41,595 nucleotides of DNA, taken from NCBI GenBank assembly GCA_947488215.1, contig CANLBD010000003.1, positions 1-41,595 on the forward strand, written 5' to 3'. Position numbers and translations under genes: made by a program. Below, in pieces: positions 18,400 through 39,769 of this stretch (position 1 is the first letter of the stretch; the number at the start of each line of letters is the position of its first letter). Under the pieces are notes generated by a model. That model was not told the DNA's origin and ran no database searches. It was given only the letters and a program-made list of their open reading frames with translations. The stretch is from Myxococcales bacterium. Its GTDB lineage: Bacteria; Myxococcota_A; Bradymonadia; UBA7976; UBA1532.

Positions 18400-20859
18400 A
18401 TGAAGCGCGATTCAGACCTGATGATGACGGCTCTCTTGAGCCTGTTGATGCTCGGCGCGTTGAGCGCCTTCGTGGGCGTATGGGAGCCTTGGGAAGCCCA
18501 GCAAGCCGCGTTCGCTTCGACCCTGCGCGAGGGCGGACACGCGCTCGTGGCGGAGCTCCCCAAGCTCAACAGCGCCGATGCGCCGCGCTACGCCTTACCC
18601 TGGGCGAGCTGGCCAACGCGGGTCTCGCTGTGGCTCCTCGGCGACACCGAGCTCGGCCTGCGCCTGCCCAGCATTCTCGCGACGACCGGCGCGCTCGTTG
18701 TGCTGATGGCGGTCGTCCGCGCTCTCTGGGGCCGACTCGCGGGTTGGCTGGCTGTGCTCGCCGCGCTGGGCGCCCCGATTGTGCTCTTTCACGGCCGTCA
18801 GAACCTGGGCGGCGGCCTCGAGATGGCGCTGGTCGGGGCGTCGACGCTCGCGTGGCTGCGAACTCTCTGTGCAGAAACGCCGGCCAGGGGGTGGCGGTGG
18901 GCGGCCCCCTTGCTCACCGCGGCCGCGGGGCTGTGCGGGGGGCTCGTGGCCTTCGCGGTCCCCGTCGCTGCCGCCGCCACCGCGCTGACGCTGGCCGACG
19001 CCGAGGCACGTGCACAGGCGCTCCGGCTAGTCCGGGTTCCCTGGGCGATCGCGTGCGCCGTGCTCCTCACCGGCTGGGGCGCGGCCATCGCCGCGTTGCC
19101 CGACGCCTCGGGTGCATTGTCTTTGCTCTTGCTGACCGAACCCTACGATGGGCTCACCGCTTCCGCCTCGTGGCCGACCTTCGACCGCATGACCCACCAG
19201 CTCGGTTACGGCCTCTTTCCGATCGCGGGCTTGGTCCCCTTCGCGCTGGGTCGCGCCCTGTGGTCGGTGCGCGACGACGCGGGCGAGTCCGACCATGCCG
19301 ACGCCGGCTCGGACGGAGACACGGCGCCGCAACGCCGCGCGGAGATCGCCCTCGCCGCGGCCTTTGCGGTCGCCTTCTTGGGCGTCGCGCTGCCGGTCCC
19401 GCTGAGTGACGGCGCGCGCTTCTCGGGCGCGCTCGTCGTGGCTGCGAGCATCGGCGTCTACCTGGCCGGGCTGGTCCGACGACCGCCTGAGCCGATGCTG
19501 GCGCTCGGGACGGCGCTGGTGCTGATGCTCCTGGACCACGGCCTTAAGCACGACCCGAAGGCCCTCGTCGAGGCGCTGACGATGGCGCGCGTCGATACAT
19601 TTCCGTCAACCCTGCAGTTCTGGCCCGCGCGCCGCATCTTGGCCGCCGTGCTGATCGCTGTCGTCGTGCTCTACCAGGGTGGCGCGTGGCGCCTCGTCGC
19701 CCCCGTCGCGCGCTTTGTCGCGTTCCCTCGGCGCGCGCTCCGTCCGCTCAGTTGGTCCCTCCTCACGCCGCTCGTCATCGTGGCCTCGGTCGTCGCGGCG
19801 CTTCGACCCGATTGGCTCTTGAGCTGGGCGAGCTCGAGCGCGCTCACGCCGCTGACAGCGCAGGCCCGACAGTTCGTCGTTCTCGCGCCGTTCGTCGTCG
19901 CGGCCTATCTCGCCCTATGGTTTGGCATCCGCGCCCGCGCCCGGCGAGTCACAGATGAGCGCGAGGCGGTCTTCGTAGAGCGCCTGAGCGCGTGGGTGCG
20001 GCGGATCGAGCAGCCGCGCTGGGCGGCGACCAGCCTCTTGGCGCTCCTGGCCGCGTGGTCAGTCTTCATGGGCGGCGCAGTGGGCGTCGAGCTCGCGCAG
20101 AACTTCAGCCAAAAGCAGATCGTTCAGGCCTACGACCGCTTCGCCCAAGGCGACGCGCCGTTGTTCAAGTACCGCGTCGACGCCAAGGGCGCGTCGTTTT
20201 ACACGCGGGCTCTCCCCGAGCTCACCCCCGCGCAGTTCAAGGAGCGCGCGACGGGCGCCGAGCGGTTCTTCGCGATCATTCCGAGAGCGCAGCTCGCGAG
20301 CATCAACGGTGAGTTCCGCGCTGCGGTGAAGGGCGCCACCCTGCCCGTGCTCGACGCGTCGAGCTTCCGCTTCCTGCTGATCTCGAACCAGCTCGCAGAG
20401 GGTGAGGACGACCAAAACCCGATCAAGCGCGCGCTCGTGCCCGAGCTACCCAAAGAGAAGGTCCGCCCAGCGAAGTTCAACTTCGACGACCAGATCGAGC
20501 TTGTCGGCTGGTACATCGACCCGCCGAACCCGAAGCCCGGGACGCGCATCGAAATCTCGCTCTATTGGAAAGCGCTCAAGAAGCCGACCCGTAACTGGAA
20601 GATCTTCGTGCACGTCGACGGCTCCGGCTCGCGCATTCACGGCGACCACGAGCCCGTCGAGGGTCTCTACCCGCCCACGAACTGGAATCCAGGGGACATC
20701 GTGCGCGACGTCTACACAACGGACGTCAAGTCGGAGAAAGCCTCGGGCCGCTACACGGTCTGGGCGGGCTTGTACTCCGGCGATACCCGCGCTGCGGTCA
20801 AGGTCGGCGACAAGGACAACGAGAACCGCGCGAAGCTCGGCGTCTTGGACGTTCGATGA
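18400..20859 (+). CDS. ArnT/PMT-like (GT39-like) integral membrane glycosyltransferase with C-terminal soluble domain
   Basis: Multi-TM. N-terminus VGVWEPWEAQQAAFASTLREGG...PRYALPWASWPTRVSLWLLGDTELGLRLPS. Soluble beta-rich C-terminus (FDDQIELVGWYIDPPNPKPGTRIEISLYWKALKKPTRNWKIFVHVD). Confidence 0.8.
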   Translation: MKRDSDLMMTALLSLLMLGALSAFVGVWEPWEAQQAAFASTLREGGHALVAELPKLNSADAPRYALPWASWPTRVSLWLLGDTELGLRLPSILATTGALVVLMAVVRALWGRLAGWLAVLAALGAPIVLFHGRQNLGGGLEMALVGASTLAWLRTLCAETPARGWRWAAPLLTAAAGLCGGLVAFAVPVAAAATALTLADAEARAQALRLVRVPWAIACAVLLTGWGAAIAALPDASGALSLLLLTEPYDGLTASASWPTFDRMTHQLGYGLFPIAGLVPFALGRALWSVRDDAGESDHADAGSDGDTAPQRRAEIALAAAFAVAFLGVALPVPLSDGARFSGALVVAASIGVYLAGLVRRPPEPMLALGTALVLMLLDHGLKHDPKALVEALTMARVDTFPSTLQFWPARRILAAVLIAVVVLYQGGAWRLVAPVARFVAFPRRALRPLSWSLLTPLVIVASVVAALRPDWLLSWASSSALTPLTAQARQFVVLAPFVVAAYLALWFGIRARARRVTDEREAVFVERLSAWVRRIEQPRWAATSLLALLAAWSVFMGGAVGVELAQNFSQKQIVQAYDRFAQGDAPLFKYRVDAKGASFYTRALPELTPAQFKERATGAERFFAIIPRAQLASINGEFRAAVKGATLPVLDASSFRFLLISNQLAEGEDDQNPIKRALVPELPKEKVRPAKFNFDDQIELVGWYIDPPNPKPGTRIEISLYWKALKKPTRNWKIFVHVDGSGSRIHGDHEPVEGLYPPTNWNPGDIVRDVYTTDVKSEKASGRYTVWAGLYSGDTRAAVKVGDKDNENRAKLGVLDVR

Positions 20860-21770
20860 TCTTCGCCCTCTGGGTGGTCGCGTTCGTCTGGGGCGCCTGT
20901 TGGGGCAGCTTCTTGAACGTCGTGATTCACCGTGTCCCGCGCGACGAGTCCGTGGTCTCGCCCGGCTCTCGCTGTGGCGCGTGCGGCGCGGCGATCCGCC
21001 CGTGGCACAACATCCCCATCGTGAGCTACTTGGCCCTGCGCGGTCGCTGCGCGGACTGTGGCGCGCGCTTTTCGCCGCGCTACATGCTCGTCGAAGCCGC
21101 GTGCGGCGTACTCGCGCTCGTCCTGTTTCGCGGCCTCGTCGACCCTACGGACCCCGACGCGCTGCTGCCGGGCTTGGCCCTGTGGGGGTACTGGCAGATC
21201 TTTGTCTACGCGCTCGTCGCGCTCACGTTCATCGACCTCGAGCACACTCTCCTGCCGTGGTCCATCACGCTGCCGACGACTGCGGTGGGCCTCATCGGCG
21301 CGTTCGCCTTGCCCTCGCTTGAGCCGTGGTCGCACGTCTGGGGGCTCGCGGCCGGCGTGCTGTTCTTTGGCTTCATCTATGGGCTCGCGTGGCTCATGTT
21401 CAAGCGCGAGGCGCTCGGGCTCGGTGACGTGGTCATCGCCGGTATGCTCGGCGCGTGGGTGGGCTGGCAGGCCATGCCCTTCGTTGTGTTGGCCGCGTGC
21501 ACACAAGGCCTGCTCGCCGCGGGCATCGCGAAGCTCTACACGGTGCTGACCGGCAAGGAGAATGCGCTCACGCTCACAACGGCCGAGCTCGACGCGCGCT
21601 TCGACGAGGTCGACGAGCACGCCGACCTGCCTGAGCACACCGCGATCCCCTTCGGGCCATTTCTCGCGCTCGGCGGCCTTGAGGCCCTGCTCTTCGGGAC
21701 CTCGGCCTTCTGGGCCGGCGTGGACGCAGTGGTGGCCCCCCTGCTCCGCGCCCTGAACGCGGGCGGCTGA
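20856..21770 (+). CDS. pilD: Prepilin leader peptidase / N-methyltransferase
   Basis: WGSFLNVVIHRVPR; CGACGAAIRPWHNIPIVSYLALRGRCADCGARFSPRYMLVE (two CxxC); GLGDVVIAGMLGAWVG. ATGA overlap with the upstream gene. Confidence 0.95.
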   Translation: MIFALWVVAFVWGACWGSFLNVVIHRVPRDESVVSPGSRCGACGAAIRPWHNIPIVSYLALRGRCADCGARFSPRYMLVEAACGVLALVLFRGLVDPTDPDALLPGLALWGYWQIFVYALVALTFIDLEHTLLPWSITLPTTAVGLIGAFALPSLEPWSHVWGLAAGVLFFGFIYGLAWLMFKREALGLGDVVIAGMLGAWVGWQAMPFVVLAACTQGLLAAGIAKLYTVLTGKENALTLTTAELDARFDEVDEHADLPEHTAIPFGPFLALGGLEALLFGTSAFWAGVDAVVAPLLRALNAGG

Positions 21771-28735: not shown

Positions 28736-29884
28736 TCAGCGAAAGCGCAGGCCGACGAGCGCGCACAGGGTCTCGAGGCCCGTCACAGGCCCGAGCGCGT
28801 TCGTTGTGGTGAGCGCATAGGAGCCCACAATGACGAACATCGTCACAATCCGCAGCGCGACGCGCTCCGCCAGCCCTGAGGTGCGTCGCCACTTCTTGCG
28901 GCGCTTGAGCTGCTGCCAGAGCTGAAAGGCGCCCAAGCAGGTCCCGTGGTAGGCGCCCCAGAGCAGCCAGTTCAGCGACAGGTGGTGCCAAGACGCCATG
29001 ATCGCCATCGATGCGTAGCCCGACAGGATCGGCCGCCGCGTGAGGCCGAGCACCGGCAGGTACACATAGTCGCGGCACCACCCCGAGAGCGAGATGTGCC
29101 AGCGCCGCCACCACTCGCCGACGTTGGTCGAGAGCCACGGGCGGTCGAAGTTCTCAGCGATGCGCCAGCCCAAGAGACGTGACGCCCCGAGGCCCATCGA
29201 CGAGTAGCCGGAGAAGTCGAAGTAGACGTAGACGCCCACACCAAAGAGGGCCGCCCAGAGGCGCCACGCCGGGATCGCGGGCAGGCTGTCGTCGAGTGTG
29301 GCGAAGGGCACGAGCGCCATCAGCCGCGTGCCGACCATCTCAGCGATGACAAATTTTGCGACCAGGCCATGCACGATCCGCGTCAGGCCGACCTCGAGGT
29401 CCTCGCGAGACAAGCGCTCGGTGCGCCCGTCTCGGAAGGCGTCCCACCGCTCGATCGGACCCGCGACGAACGCGGGAAAGAGGCAAAGCCAGCGGGCCAA
29501 CTCCGCCGGCGGCGCAGGCGAGAAGCGACCCCGCGCGACCTCGACCGTGTAGTGAATCAGCTTGAACGTGAAATACGACAGACCCAGCGGTGCGGCGAGG
29601 CTCGAGCCCTCGAAGACGAGCTTGAACCCGACGAGCATCGAGGCAAACCCGCCGACGAGCGCGAACGTCAGGCGCCGTCCGCGGAGCCCGCCCGCTGCGA
29701 GGGTAGGCCCGAGCGCGACCAGCGCTGCCCACGCCGGCACCAGGATGGCCAAGGCTCTCCAGTCCCACGACGCCACGAGCGCCAGCGAGACAACGAGCGT
29801 GAGCGCACCACGCCAGGCGGGCCGAAGCGCGCCGACCGCGACCAAGCCGCCGAGCGCGAGCCAGAACCATGCGCTCCCGACCAT
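28736..29884 (-). CDS. MBOAT-family O-acyltransferase (DltB/AlgI-like)
   Basis: GLSYFTFKLIHYTVEVARG; FPAFVAGPIERWDAFR; YFDFSGYSSMGLGASRLLGWRIAENFDRPWLSTNVGEWWRRWHISLSGWCRDYVYLPV; ASWHHLSLNWLLWGAYHG. Confidence 0.95.
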   Translation of the reverse strand: MVGSAWFWLALGGLVAVGALRPAWRGALTLVVSLALVASWDWRALAILVPAWAALVALGPTLAAGGLRGRRLTFALVGGFASMLVGFKLVFEGSSLAAPLGLSYFTFKLIHYTVEVARGRFSPAPPAELARWLCLFPAFVAGPIERWDAFRDGRTERLSREDLEVGLTRIVHGLVAKFVIAEMVGTRLMALVPFATLDDSLPAIPAWRLWAALFGVGVYVYFDFSGYSSMGLGASRLLGWRIAENFDRPWLSTNVGEWWRRWHISLSGWCRDYVYLPVLGLTRRPILSGYASMAIMASWHHLSLNWLLWGAYHGTCLGAFQLWQQLKRRKKWRRTSGLAERVALRIVTMFVIVGSYALTTTNALGPVTGLETLCALVGLRFR

Positions 29885-29888
29885 GCCC

Positions 29889-30026
29889 TCAGAACCCCGC
29901 GTACCGAAAGACGCGGGCCCCCGCGCTCGCGGCGTAGAGCCCGCCGAGCGCGATGACGAGGAGCTGACCCAGGACGATGATCTGCAGCGCGATGCCCACG
30001 GCGCGCGCGACGCGAGGGGAGATCAT
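29889..30026 (-). CDS. DltX-like 45-aa membrane microprotein ending in FRYAGF (FxYxxF)
   Basis: Hand translation of the minus strand: MISPRVARAVGIALQIIVLGQLLVIALGGLYAASAGARVFRYAGF*. Not in the supplied ORF track (<60 aa). ATG overlaps the upstream TGA (ATGA 30023-30026). The stop lies 4 nt before the MBOAT ATG. One TM helix. Confidence 0.85.
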   Translation of the reverse strand: MISPRVARAVGIALQIIVLGQLLVIALGGLYAASAGARVFRYAGF

Positions 30027-31108
30027 GGGCGCACCGTCGACGGGTTGGGCTCGCTCAGGTGACGCGCGACAAGCGCGGCCAGACGCGCCTCGTATCGACG
30101 CATGGCCTCCTCGGAGCGCAGGTGGGTAAAGTCGTGAAAGTCCTCATCGACGAGGGCGGCCTCGGCGTCGAGGTCGACGAGCGGCACGCCGAGGCGCGCC
30201 GCAAGGGGCGCCACCCGTGCACGGGCAGCGCTCCGCGCCTCGGTGAGCGCGGGGCGAGCACGCGGCGCCAGCGGCGGCTCGAGCAGAATCGGCCGCCACT
30301 GCGTCTGGCGTTGAAGATGCGTGAGCGTCTGCTCGAGGGCGACCAGATGGGCGCTCACGAGGGCATCGTCCTGGGCACGCTGCTCGAAGCCGACGCGCAA
30401 GGCGTCGACGCGTTCGACCCAGCGCTCGTCGGTCCACTGCCTGCGCCCAAGGTAACGATGGCGTCTCGGCTCGGGCGCACCCAATGCCAGCCAAACCGGA
30501 ACCTGAGGGCGACTCACGAAGAACTGCAGGTGGTCGAGGAAATAGAGCCCCGTGGCCGTCCGCTCGGGCATACCGAGCACACGCGCGACCGCGTTCATTT
30601 CGTCGACCGCGAGCGCGCTCGTGGGGTGCTCGAACCGTGTCTGCAGGTCAGTCCGGTCAGCGAAGAGCGTGCCGGGGCCAATCCCGAGCACCACGACGCC
30701 CCGGGGGGTCTCTGGCAGCGCGCCGAGAACGACGAGCGACTCCCCGAGCGCCTGCCCCCCCGATGTCAAGTTGAAAGCGCCCAAGGTCGTTTCTCTTGGC
30801 TGCTCGAGCGCGTCCGCCACCGAGTCGCGGAGAGTGTCGATGTGCCAGAACGCCTCGCGCATGCTCGACGCGCCGACGAGCGCGACGTGGGCAGAGCGAG
30901 CGGGTTCGCGCTGCGCCGTCACCAGCGCGTGCGTGAGCGCGGCGCCGTCGTCGTCCACGTTGCGCGCCAAGACACCCGGCTCGAGGCGTGCAACGACATC
31001 GGGCGTGACGAAGACACACAGCGCGGCGATCTCGACCAGGGCAAAAGCGATGACCCCCAGGGTGACGCTGAGCCGAGGTCGAAGCGCGCCATCGAGGAAC
31101 GCGCTCAT
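30023..31108 (-). CDS. Membrane-anchored SGNH-hydrolase-like acyltransferase (DltD/AlgX-like role)
   Basis: N-terminal TM (LSVTLGVIAFALVEIAALCVFV). GxS block VALVGASSMREAFW. C-terminal DxxH block FHDFTHLRSEEAMRRYEARL. Confidence 0.78.
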   Translation of the reverse strand: MSAFLDGALRPRLSVTLGVIAFALVEIAALCVFVTPDVVARLEPGVLARNVDDDGAALTHALVTAQREPARSAHVALVGASSMREAFWHIDTLRDSVADALEQPRETTLGAFNLTSGGQALGESLVVLGALPETPRGVVVLGIGPGTLFADRTDLQTRFEHPTSALAVDEMNAVARVLGMPERTATGLYFLDHLQFFVSRPQVPVWLALGAPEPRRHRYLGRRQWTDERWVERVDALRVGFEQRAQDDALVSAHLVALEQTLTHLQRQTQWRPILLEPPLAPRARPALTEARSAARARVAPLAARLGVPLVDLDAEAALVDEDFHDFTHLRSEEAMRRYEARLAALVARHLSEPNPSTVRP

Positions 31109-32031
31109 TCCCCGCCGCGCGCTCGGCTCGCCGACAACATCTGGCCAAGCTCGAGCTGTCGGAGCGCCTCCTCCGCGGAGCGCTCTTTGACTTGCTTCAG
31201 CGCCGGGTAGCCCGCGCGCACGGCGACGTCGTTCACGAGGCCACCGAGACGCGAGATGGTGTGCTTGGAGAGCTGTGTGTAGCGACCCACGCTCTGCTGG
31301 TCGACCTGGGTCCGCTCCAGCAGCTTCCAGTCACCGAAGCCGACGGGCGCGCGGTCGGAAACGGCGGCCGCGACCGCACCGGGTGACGGGGCGAGGCCGA
31401 GGGCTTCGAAGAGGCGAGCGGCCTCGGACTCAGGCTGCGCGACGAGCGCTTCGTAGCGCACCACGACGGTGTCCGACGCACGACGCTCCGCGAAGTCGAG
31501 GAGGCGGGTCGTGATGTCCGCCCAAGCTTGCGCGAGGGCGACGCAGACGTTCGGCTCGCGGCGAATATAGCCGTGAATCTCCTCGGGGAAGCGCTGGCTG
31601 CGCGCGAAGAGCTCCTGCATGCTGACCACGACGTCGAGGGGGTGCCGGAGCAGCACGACATAGGTCACCGCTTCGCCGCACAAATCCTCGATGGCGTCGA
31701 GGTGAAAGGCGTTGAAGGGCGTCTTCTCGGCCCAGACTCGTCGGCCTCGGCGCTGCGCGTGCTCTCGCATGAAGCCGAAGACAAACTCGCGTGTCCGCGC
31801 GACGACGTCGGCCGCCTCAAAGCCCGCGAACGCCAACCCGCTCCGCACGCCGACGTGCAGACCTTCGGCGATGGTCTCGTCTTCAAGGAACCGGGCGCCC
31901 GCGCGGAGCAGGTGCGTCTCCGGTGGGCACGCCACCTCGGGGTGGGCGTCGAAGATGCGCTGCAGCAGGGTCGTCCCTGAGCGCGGCAGCGCGAGCACGA
32001 CGACCCCCTCGCGCGGCGCGCGCTCAGCCAC
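31105..32031 (-). CDS. PAPS-dependent sulfotransferase family protein
   Basis: VVVLALPRSGTTLLQRIFDAHPEVACPPETHLL (5'-PSB loop); VWAEKTPFNAFHLDAI; YVVLLRHPLDVVVSM. GTG start, 8-nt overlap with the upstream gene. Confidence 0.9.
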   Translation of the reverse strand: MAERAPREGVVVLALPRSGTTLLQRIFDAHPEVACPPETHLLRAGARFLEDETIAEGLHVGVRSGLAFAGFEAADVVARTREFVFGFMREHAQRRGRRVWAEKTPFNAFHLDAIEDLCGEAVTYVVLLRHPLDVVVSMQELFARSQRFPEEIHGYIRREPNVCVALAQAWADITTRLLDFAERRASDTVVVRYEALVAQPESEAARLFEALGLAPSPGAVAAAVSDRAPVGFGDWKLLERTQVDQQSVGRYTQLSKHTISRLGGLVNDVAVRAGYPALKQVKERSAEEALRQLELGQMLSASRARGGE

Positions 32032-33909: not shown

Positions 33910-36498
<2,589 letters not shown>

Positions 36499-36570: not shown

Positions 36571-38088
36571 TTATCGCGGGTATTCGCGCCCCTCGGTCTC
36601 CCGGCGCGCTCGCCACACCTCGATCCCCACGCAGAACGCCTCGACGACCGCGGGATCGAACTGCGTGCCCGCGCAGCGTCGAATCTCGTCCATCGCGACC
36701 TGATGCCGCAGCGCGCTGCGGTAGGCGCGGTGGCTCGTCATGGCGTCGTAGGTGTCCGCGACCGCCATGATGCGGGCCATCATCGGGATGTCCTCGCCCT
36801 TGAGCCCGCGCGGGTAGCCGGTGCCGTCCCACTTCTCGTGGTGCATGCCGATGCCGGGCAGGAGCTGGCGAAACGCGGGGATCTTCTTGAGCAGGTCCTC
36901 GCCAAAGCCGGGGTGGGCCTTGAAGCGCTGGAACTCCTCCTGCGTGAGCCCCGCGGGCTTGTTGAGCTCCTCGGCGCGGATCGTGAGCTTGCCGATGTCG
37001 TGCAGTCGCCCCGACTGGTAGATGAGGTCGCAGGCGTCATCCGGCAGGCTGAGCGCCCGTGCCGTCGCCTCGGCGAACTCCGCGACGCGCTCGCTGTGGC
37101 CGCGCGTGTAGCGGTCCTTCTCCTCGAGCGCAGCGATGAAGACCTCGACGCTGTTGCGAAAATTGCGCTCGAGGCTCTCGAAGAGCTGCGCGTTGTGCAC
37201 GGCGGCGGCGGCGCGGTCGGCCAAGATGGTCAGGAGCTTGCGCTGCCCCTCGACGAAGGGCGCGCCGCCCGAGCGCGCGGCGAGCAACATCCCCAACACT
37301 CGACCGCGGCTCGTGAGCGGCAGCACCAGCAGCGACTCGGTCGCGGCCGTGCGCGGCGACTGGCGCAGGTAGCGGAAGACCCGCCCGCCCGTCGCAAGCA
37401 CGCTCGTGCGCAGAGCGAGCGCCTCGTCAGTCAGATCATCCCGCGAGAGTGGCTCGCCACCGCACGACGCGGGCTCGTATTCAACGCCCTCCTCGTCGGG
37501 CATGAGCATCACGGACACACGGTCCGCCTGCGTCTGGTCTCGCACGACCTCGGCGATCAGGCGCAGAGTCGGCTCGAGCTCGACCTCGTCGGACAGGCGC
37601 GACGCGAGCTGGTAGAGCGAGAGCGAGGCCTTGAGCGCGATGTTCTCGTGCGTCAGGCGCTGCTGCTCGAGCGCGCGCTGCACGGTGTGGACCACCTCTT
37701 CGACCTTGAAGGGCTTGAGCACGTAGTCAAATGCGCCCGTCTTCATCGCGTGGAGCGCTGTCTCGACCGTGCCGTACCCCGTCATGAGCACCGTCACGAC
37801 CTCGGGGTGGTCGCGCCGCGCGCGCTCAAGCAGCTCGAGCCCGCCCATCTCGGGCATCTTCAGATCGCTCAGGAGCAGGTTGAAGGGCCGCTCCGCGAGC
37901 GCCTCGAGCGCCGCGCGACCATTCGGCGCGTCGTGCACGACGTACCCCTCCATCCGGAGAAAGTCGCACAGGATCTCCCGAATGGAGGGCTCGTCGTCCA
38001 CCACGAGCAGGCGCGCCGGCCCGACCGCCGCGGGGGCCGTAAGACGCCCAAAATCTGCCGACTCGCTCAAGTTCGCCTTGCTCTTCAT
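36571..38088 (-). CDS. Response regulator: receiver + GAF + HD-GYP (c-di-GMP phosphodiesterase-like)
   Basis: LLVVDDEPSIREILCDFLRMEGY...LSDLKMPEMGGLELLERAR...LMTGYGT...VLKPF; GAF-like middle; GRLHDIGKLTI and HHEKWDGTGYPRGLKGEDIP. ATG at 38088. Confidence 0.94.
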   Translation of the reverse strand: MKSKANLSESADFGRLTAPAAVGPARLLVVDDEPSIREILCDFLRMEGYVVHDAPNGRAALEALAERPFNLLLSDLKMPEMGGLELLERARRDHPEVVTVLMTGYGTVETALHAMKTGAFDYVLKPFKVEEVVHTVQRALEQQRLTHENIALKASLSLYQLASRLSDEVELEPTLRLIAEVVRDQTQADRVSVMLMPDEEGVEYEPASCGGEPLSRDDLTDEALALRTSVLATGGRVFRYLRQSPRTAATESLLVLPLTSRGRVLGMLLAARSGGAPFVEGQRKLLTILADRAAAAVHNAQLFESLERNFRNSVEVFIAALEEKDRYTRGHSERVAEFAEATARALSLPDDACDLIYQSGRLHDIGKLTIRAEELNKPAGLTQEEFQRFKAHPGFGEDLLKKIPAFRQLLPGIGMHHEKWDGTGYPRGLKGEDIPMMARIMAVADTYDAMTSHRAYRSALRHQVAMDEIRRCAGTQFDPAVVEAFCVGIEVWRARRETEGREYPR

Positions 38089-38218
38089 GGGCTCAGGTTC
38101 CGCCCGATCATACCCGCGTTCCCCCGCGCGTCTGCCAAGAAAACCCGCAGTCCCCTTGCCTACGGCGCTCGGGGGACGTTGAATCGGCGAGAAGTTTCCC
38201 GCAACGCTTGGGGGGGAG

Positions 38219-39769
38219 ATGCGCGAAGGCGCTCGGGGTCGCGCGTCCGCCGCCTGGGTGGCCGTGCTTGCATGCGCGGCCGTCCTCGTGCTGCCGCTGC
38301 CCGGCTTTGTCATCGACGCTCTGCTCCTTGCCCAGCTCGCCGCGGCCGTCCTGGGCATCGTGCGTCGACCGCAAACCCACGGTGAACGCGCTCTTGGTCC
38401 GCGCATTATCCTTGCGGGCGCGCTCAGCCGCGTGGTCGTCGCGGTCGCTCTCCTGCGCGCGGCGACGGGCAGCGGAGATGCGGGCTCTCTGGTGGGCATC
38501 GCCGGCACAATCGCCCAAGCGGGCGGCGTGCTCGGCGGCGTCGGCGCGTTCGTCGCGCTGACGACGCTGCACGTCATGGTCGTCGCGCGGGGCGCGGAGC
38601 GGCTCGGTCAGGTGACCGCCCGGTTCGCGCTCGACGCGCTGCCCGGACGGCAGCTCGCGCTCGAGGGCGAGCTTCGGCAGCGCCTCGCGGACCCCGCGCG
38701 GGTCGGCGTGGAGCGGGCCCGCTTGCTCCGCGACGCTGAGACAGCGGGGCACGTCGACGGGGTCACCCGTATGCTGCGGGCCGAGTCCGTGGCGCTCGCC
38801 GCCCTGGTCGCGCTGGTCTTCGTGGGCGCGCTCCTTGGAGGCGTCTACGAGCGGGGCATCGAGGCGGCCGAGGCGGCCCGAGCGGCGCTCGGCACCGCGC
38901 TGGGCGCGAGCCTGTGGCTGCAAGTCCCCGCGCTCACTGCGGCAGGCGCCGCCGCTTGGCTCGCCTTGCAGAGCGGGTCCGATGCGCCCACGAGAGACGA
39001 CGACGAAGAGGCGCCGTGGGTGCTCTCGACTCGCCGCGCAGACGCCACCGCCGCCCAACAGGCGCTGTCGCGGGCGCTCGTGCCTGCCGGTCTCAGCCTG
39101 CCCGCGCTGCGCCCGACCTTTGACGAGACCTTGCCCGCAGGCACCCTGAAGCTCGAGCGACGGGGCGTCGTCCTCCTCACCGGCACGATCGGCCCCGGCC
39201 TCGAACAGCTGGCGCGTCGACGTCTCGCGCCGCTCCTCGTGACCCTGCAGGCCACCGCGGCGCGGCTCAGCGCGCTGGAGTCGAGCGCGCCGGTGCTCAT
39301 CCGCGCCGCGATGCCAAGCCGCGTCGATGTCGTTCAGCTCACCCGTGTCCTGCGCGCCCTCGCGGCGGACGCCCTGCCCTCACACGACCTGGAGACCGTG
39401 CTCGACGCCCTCACGGCCGCCCCGCCCGGCGCCGAGCCCGAAGCCTACGTCGCCGCTGCGCGACGCGCCTTCGCTGATGCCCTGACGGCACGACTCCTGG
39501 GGTGCGCTCCGGAGCGCGTCGGGTGCGCCGGCGCGACGCTCGAGTCGGCGCTCGCGCGTGGCGCGCCCGCCCCCTCGCTGGTCGATGATCTCGTCGAGCG
39601 GATCGACACGCTGCCCGGTGAGCCCATGACGCTCGTCTGCGTCCTGTGCTCACCCGAAGCGCGCGTCCCGCTCGCTGAACTCTTCGCCACAACCCGCCCG
39701 CAGGTCGCGGTGATCGCTCTCGACGAGGTGCGCCCCGGCACCCGCGTCATCCCCGCCGCGATCCTGTGA
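38219..39769 (+). CDS. Diverged FlhA/SctV (FHIPEP)-family-like membrane protein
   Basis: LPLPGFVIDALLLAQLAAAVLGIV; VVARGAERLGQVTARFALDALPGRQLALEGEL; GHVDGVTRMLRAESVALAALVALVFVGALLGGVYERGIEAAEA...LWLQVPALTAAGAAAWLAL; RPTFDETLPAGTLKLERRGVVLLTG; C-terminal PQVAVIALDEVRPGTRV. Strong SD (GGGGGGGAG). Confidence 0.72.
   Translation: MREGARGRASAAWVAVLACAAVLVLPLPGFVIDALLLAQLAAAVLGIVRRPQTHGERALGPRIILAGALSRVVVAVALLRAATGSGDAGSLVGIAGTIAQAGGVLGGVGAFVALTTLHVMVVARGAERLGQVTARFALDALPGRQLALEGELRQRLADPARVGVERARLLRDAETAGHVDGVTRMLRAESVALAALVALVFVGALLGGVYERGIEAAEAARAALGTALGASLWLQVPALTAAGAAAWLALQSGSDAPTRDDDEEAPWVLSTRRADATAAQQALSRALVPAGLSLPALRPTFDETLPAGTLKLERRGVVLLTGTIGPGLEQLARRRLAPLLVTLQATAARLSALESSAPVLIRAAMPSRVDVVQLTRVLRALAADALPSHDLETVLDALTAAPPGAEPEAYVAAARRAFADALTARLLGCAPERVGCAGATLESALARGAPAPSLVDDLVERIDTLPGEPMTLVCVLCSPEARVPLAELFATTRPQVAVIALDEVRPGTRVIPAAIL

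Follow-up and report, generated by a model that had tools for sequence, protein, structure and literature searches.

The window, the whole 41,595-nt stretch of DNA analyzed here, comes from a metagenome-assembled genome (MAG), G000, of 2.7 Mb in 246 contigs that is 67% complete. It carries an sctV-like (FHIPEP) export-gate gene (38219..39769, +), an intact ORF of 516 codons that starts with ATG and has a GC content by codon position of 0.83/0.56/0.86. A G-rich purine stretch abuts the ATG (38210..38218, +) and may be a poorly spaced ribosome-binding site; repeat and promoter scans of the sequence gave nothing useful. Divergent from sctV lies a response regulator-GAF-HD-GYP gene (36571..38088, -; Pfam Response_reg, GAF and HD_5), and then gyrA (33910..36498, -), a conserved syntenic neighbor that marks the locus and is not part of the machine. 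As the original prediction had stated, the window showed no further T3SS or flagellar gene. We found the head-to-head sctV/HD-GYP pair in G000 and in seven other genomes (G002, G005, G007, G008, G009, G011 and G012), usually near gyrA, and G000 and G009 share the same order over about 20 kb: prepilin peptidase-atpB-hemL-gyrA-HD-GYP-sctV-LOG-FemAB-like. sctV is vertically inherited at a family-conserved locus. Within this block, the prepilin peptidase (A24) gene (20856-21770, +) is followed by a histidine kinase gene and possibly serves Tad or type IV pili. Genes for an MBOAT acyltransferase, a protein without a Pfam match and a sulfotransferase follow one another between hemL and gyrA (28736-32031, -), unlike G009, where hemL and gyrA are adjacent.

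By its sequence, the window protein is a genuine FHIPEP homologue, far outside the FlhA and SctV equivalog definitions. Pfam FHIPEP (PF00771) matched it in two stretches with 155 bits (gathering score 29.1; E=3.1e-45), and its scores against the NCBIfam FlhA (TIGR01398, 135 bits) and SctV (TIGR01399, 119 bits) equivalogs fall below the respective cut-offs of 772 and 692. A phmmer search of the PDB matched FlhA and SctV chains with E-values down to 1.5e-30 and covered the cytoplasmic domain as well. An AlphaFold2 model was built on an alignment of 48 sequences (mean pLDDT 81, pTM 0.49); when it was compared with solved structures by Foldseek, as had been suggested, the C-terminal domain matched FlhA_C and SctV_C with a probability of 1.00. 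The initial view of the gene as a diverged FlhA/SctV homologue is borne out by the profile, chain and fold matches, the FlhA-like motifs listed at that time are present, and the loop that reads AIDADL in FlhA does read ALEGEL here. A pseudogene or frameshift artefact was ruled out by the single open frame, the coding-type GC3 and the in-frame character of the internal loss. Scanning contigs for similar proteins returned mostly flagellar FlhA or SctV from unrelated phyla, with only L118 (Kofleriaceae) and L174 (Firmicute) matching over most of the length of the window protein; the L118 match suggests that the window species probably belongs to the phylum Myxococcota. Literature searches turned up no description of a comparable orphan or reduced SctV.

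Proteins of the FHIPEP family have eight membrane helices followed by a cytoplasmic domain of four subdomains. The window protein departs from this layout, with no hydrophobic segment past TM6. Its N-terminal membrane half (residues ~14-252; 38258..38974, +), delimited by alignment, residue map and the AlphaFold2 helices (residues 2-24, 29-48, 59-84, 104-153, 159-211 and 216-252), contains six hydrophobic helices and the FHIPEP loop (RFALDALPGRQLALEGEL, residues 135-152). An acidic linker modeled at low confidence (residues ~253-297; 38975..39109, +; low pLDDT at ~251-300) occupies the position that TM7, TM8 and the beginning of the cytoplasmic domain have in FlhA. The remainder (residues ~298-516; 39110..39766, +) is a reduced cytoplasmic domain with a D1 remnant, a largely missing D2 and a D3-D4-like portion. 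Two stretches of E. coli FlhA have no counterpart: residues 308-398, covering TM8 and the first part of the cytoplasmic domain, and residues 436-488, which are mostly D2; TM7 is lost or unrecognizable. The short length of 516 aa noted at the outset is real, and the loss is internal. Loss of a two-helix hairpin would keep the cytoplasmic domain of SctV on the correct side, and among the aligned relatives the loss of TM7-8 occurs in the window protein only.

FlhA residues D45, R85, R94, R147, R154, D158, D199, R206 and Q254 are kept in the window protein, and three others are changed (D208E, D249A and R270Q), the first two at proton-path positions. In our test set (R85, R94, R147, R154, D158, D199, D208, D249 and Q254) all residues are kept save D208E and D249A, and R85, R94, R147 and R154 are invariant over the whole alignment. 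D249A is limited to G000, G002 and G009, which also have D208E in common. In Salmonella FlhA, export is lost with D249A and slower with D208E, and FlgD is still secreted with D249E and D249K (PMC3139655). A 2026 preprint places both residues, 208 and 249, on the proton path (PMC13308203).

In our tree, the window protein groups with the divergent non-flagellar SctV copies of relatives at 100% support (SH-aLRT), so that the proposed phylogeny does recover a conserved non-flagellar clade; its precise position within that clade is uncertain, as the window branch is very long (3-4.5 substitutions per site). The gene had been called an orphan, which fails at the scale of the genome. It looked like one owing to the scatter of the T3SS genes and to the break of contig C5 before the flagellar fliP...flhA. 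On contig C89 of G000 we found a divergent fliO-sctR-S-T-U operon (fliO-fliP-fliQ-fliR-flhB-like) adjoining prfA and a CPBP-family gene, with 151 bits for FliP, 31 bits for FliQ and 20.5 bits, just below the cut-off of 22, for FliO; in several relatives the pore genes also lie near prfA/CPBP. Contig C6 carries a FliA-like sigma factor-sctJ-sctK/L-sctQ operon; besides the sigma factor, it encodes a lipoprotein that has a hydrophobic segment at its C-terminus, a K/L-like fusion protein and a protein that is Q-like. This operon was located via its flanks, GDH and CpaF-like genes, which also enclose sigma-sctJ-sctK-sctL-sctQ in relatives. Profiles built from relatives only recovered the FliR-like (E=1e-26), FlhB-like (E=4e-20), SctJ-like (E=4e-18), SctQ-like (E=1e-21) and SctL-like (E=3e-10) proteins of G000, and SctK was assigned by position. 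Every T3SS*-like gene detected in G000 has an uninterrupted reading frame and coding-type GC3. Together with the tree, the C89 and C6 operons support the earlier suggestion that the gene belongs to a split, non-flagellar T3SS-like system. The sigma factor gene (L100 5010-5660, +) lies directly upstream of sctJ family-wide and is a candidate for a regulator devoted to these scattered genes.

An NPTH autocleavage motif is a general feature of SctU/FlhB; the SctU at the C89 locus has no NP[TE]H motif, and neither do five related loci, whereas G041 has NPTH. The SctQ-like protein of G000 had no SpoA match in Pfam. The genome-wide search proposed for fliPQR, flhB and sctN succeeded in part: the divergent fliPQR/flhB are on C89, and in the 67% complete G000 the search for sctN returned only the flagellar FliI and one rotary-ATPase-like subunit. 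No secretin, needle or translocon genes were seen within the loci read. Contig C18 carries a Tad operon whose genes read as CpaC-, CpaE-, CpaF-, TadB- and TadC-like. An extra FliN-like SpoA protein (80 bits) is encoded on C1 (L080 7296-7757, -), away from both systems; it has counterparts in most family members and could be a C-ring part of either.

We lean toward reading the window gene as the SctV of a scattered non-flagellar T3SS that is closest by gene content to the needle-less myxobacterial T3SS* and became reduced in this lineage. The kinship with T3SS* rests on gene content and the literature because the tree was made without any M. xanthus sequence. In M. xanthus, T3SS* comprises an inner-membrane platform and an export apparatus, lacks both secretin and needle, and cooperates with the Kil/Tad pilus to kill and lyse prey (PMC10433427, PMC12075869, PMC10849154). 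FliO is a known part of the Myxococcota non-flagellar T3SS (PMC12403147), and Bradymonadia have been proposed to possess a T3SS* (PMC11509652). Like the M. xanthus T3SS*/'Myxo' NF-T3SS group (Abby and Rocha 2012; Thiery et al. 2022), G000 combines a non-flagellar SctR/S/T/U/V gate with SctJ, SctL and SctQ, has a FliO homologue encoded alongside the gate and also carries a Tad system. However, that system forms one cluster, whereas G000 has several loci, a reduced SctV, an SctU without NPTH and no sctN that we could find. The bradymonad T3SS* is likewise described in predatory Myxococcota with SctV/SctR homologues and Tad (PMC11509652), and G041, a bradymonad by inference, has a scattered yet full-featured set with a full-length SctV, an SctU with NPTH and an SctJ-K-L-N operon, unlike G000. 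Flagellar FlhA shares with the window protein the FHIPEP loop, membrane helices 1-6, six of the conserved residues (R85, R94, R147, R154, D158 and D199) and a related C-terminal fold, but differs in TM7-8, parts of D1 and D2 and the three substitutions, and is excluded by the tree. In Chlamydiales, core T3SS genes are also scattered over several loci (PMC3459982); chlamydial systems have a secretin, however, and the likeness is one of scattering with no specific kinship.

If the system works as in M. xanthus, SctR/S/T would form a membrane pore with SctU, SctV a ring beneath the SctR/S/T/U pore, SctJ a membrane ring and SctK/L/Q a sorting platform, and the assembly would act with the Tad pilus on prey contact. 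The gate is reduced in this lineage: SctV retains six of the eight membrane helices, its cytoplasmic domain is small and the D249 acid is gone, and SctU carries no autocleavage motif. Because the gate is reduced, D249 is replaced and the SctU motif is lost, export would be expected to be weak, slow or altered and to lack a substrate-specificity switch, and not to be full export of the flagellar type; canonical export by such a gate appears doubtful because these export features are lost. The homology, the clade, the scattered partners, the intact ORFs, the conserved locus and the lost features have direct support from the data, and assembly, export and a role in predation are suggested by analogy with M. 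xanthus. Against this explanation stand the failure to find sctN in the 67% complete genome, D249A (export-abolishing in Salmonella), the missing TM7-8, the SctU without NPTH, the SctQ-like protein without a Pfam SpoA match and dN/dS values several-fold above those of flagellar and neighbor controls.

The main rival to a reduced, predation-linked T3SS* is a decaying relic, which we regard as possible but doubtful. Here the system would be unneeded and lost piecemeal, with sctV shrunken and its proton-coupling acid gone but its frame still open. The distribution of changes is consistent with such a course, as D208E and D249A are common to G000, G002 and G009 and the loss of TM7-8 is confined to the window, and so is the very long branch. 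Gene loss among relatives points the same way. In G005, G009, G007 and G006, sctN stands by itself, beside or flanked by M16 peptidase genes; in G012, G008 and G004, which keep sctV and sctJ, it is cleanly absent from the interval between the conserved pair of M16 peptidase genes. Divergent fliPQR are cleanly lost from the syntenic CPBP locus of G012, where CPBP and a hybrid regulator are 13 bp apart (L184, G012:C77 254000-268000), whereas in the sister G008 they lie between these two genes (L044, G008:C169); G012 keeps sctV and sctJ despite this loss. Separately, in G001 (87% complete) the SctV-like protein is full-length (663 aa, FHIPEP 420 bits, key residues kept; L186/L011, G001:C71), and FliP, FliF, FliMN_C and an export ATPase were searched for there and not found, making sctV nearly a true orphan in that genome.

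Selection was assessed from pairs of relatives and not from the window gene itself, and because dS is high (0.5-0.95) the dN/dS values are rough: 0.3-0.7 in relatives against 0.1-0.3 for controls. At this precision, the G008/G012 pair (genus g9) gave 0.34 (bootstrap 0.23-0.49) for the sctV TM region and 0.70 (0.56-0.88) past it, compared with 0.13 for flagellar flhA and 0.32 for the M16 gene, a control of the neighboring type. The G009/G002 pair (genus g3, the lineage nearest the window) gave similarly rough values of 0.67 for the sctV TM region, 0.62 for sctQ and 0.52 for fliR, compared with 0.11-0.16 for the CpaF-like gene and GDH. Values of 0.5-0.7 for several T3SS* genes favor decay; however, the bootstrap intervals in g9 stay below 1, the detected T3SS* genes of G000 are all open and the four arginines are invariant. 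That the ORFs are intact and that relatives show dN/dS below 1 speaks against a dead gene, and the dN/dS values fit a retained, weakly constrained and fast-evolving system. D249A, the loss of TM7-8, the loss of the SctU NPTH motif and the raised dN/dS argue for strong relaxation or changed function.

Changed function could also mean that SctV and its partners form a non-exporting structural platform, an inner-membrane base with the Tad pilus in which proton-driven export was abandoned; we consider this quite unlikely. Export-specific features (D249, NPTH and, in several genomes, sctN) are lost and SctJ/K/L/Q and the gate scaffold remain, G000 has a Tad operon, a CpaF-family ATPase-like gene with Walker A Lys replaced by Arg lies beside sctQ in G000, G002 and G009, and Kil recruits T3SS* in M. 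xanthus (PMC12075869). On the other hand, a physical SctV-Tad link is presumed by analogy, fast evolution is compatible with decay too, and T3SS* is needed for prey lysis in M. xanthus, suggesting effector traffic. A related proposal, that the export apparatus of this lineage gave up proton-driven export and survives as an inner-membrane platform with the Tad pilus, SctV being its longest-retained part, seems unlikely to us; its basis is the loss of D249 and of the SctU autocleavage motif, the missing ATPase in several genomes, and the fact that G012 and G001 keep sctV and the divergent pore genes were not found there. The CpaF/T2SSE-like gene beside sctQ (L100, G000 C6, 8053-9303, -; L085 2903-5035; L084 5477-7351) reads GPPDSGRTS or GPADSGRTT at Walker A, its dN/dS between G009 and G002 is low (0.11) unlike that of the adjacent T3SS genes, and the CpaF of the C18 Tad operon has a normal GKT.

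A displaced flagellar flhA serving the organism's own flagellum was ruled out, and we give it almost no credence: the window gene is the sole FHIPEP gene in the assembly, with no second one found, and a flagellar cluster with FliI (581 bits) and FliF is present on C5, but forced grouping with flagellar FlhA was rejected (AU p=0.014), relatives have canonical flhA and fliP in flagellar clusters alongside the sctV-like gene, and at FlhA position 137 the flagellar rows all carry N, the other T3SS* rows Q, and the window protein and G002 H. C5, separate from the T3SS-like loci, breaks inside a fliO-like gene past fliM and fliN (both assigned by position), and the flagellar fliP...flhA would therefore lie beyond its end.

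How the needle-less T3SS* works and what is exported without a needle or secretin is an open question in the field, and this family provides a series of naturally reduced forms of that machine. Stripped of the proton-path acid of the gate, helices 7-8, SctU autocleavage and the ATPase, with other parts retained, it shows which parts may be dispensable and yields direct mutational predictions for Myxococcus. It also calls for caution, since 'orphan' T3SS genes of Myxococcota may belong to scattered systems missed by cluster-based finders. Further sctV-like genes stand alone among non-T3SS-looking genes in the Myxococcota MAGs L118 and L168, and such scattering may be widespread.
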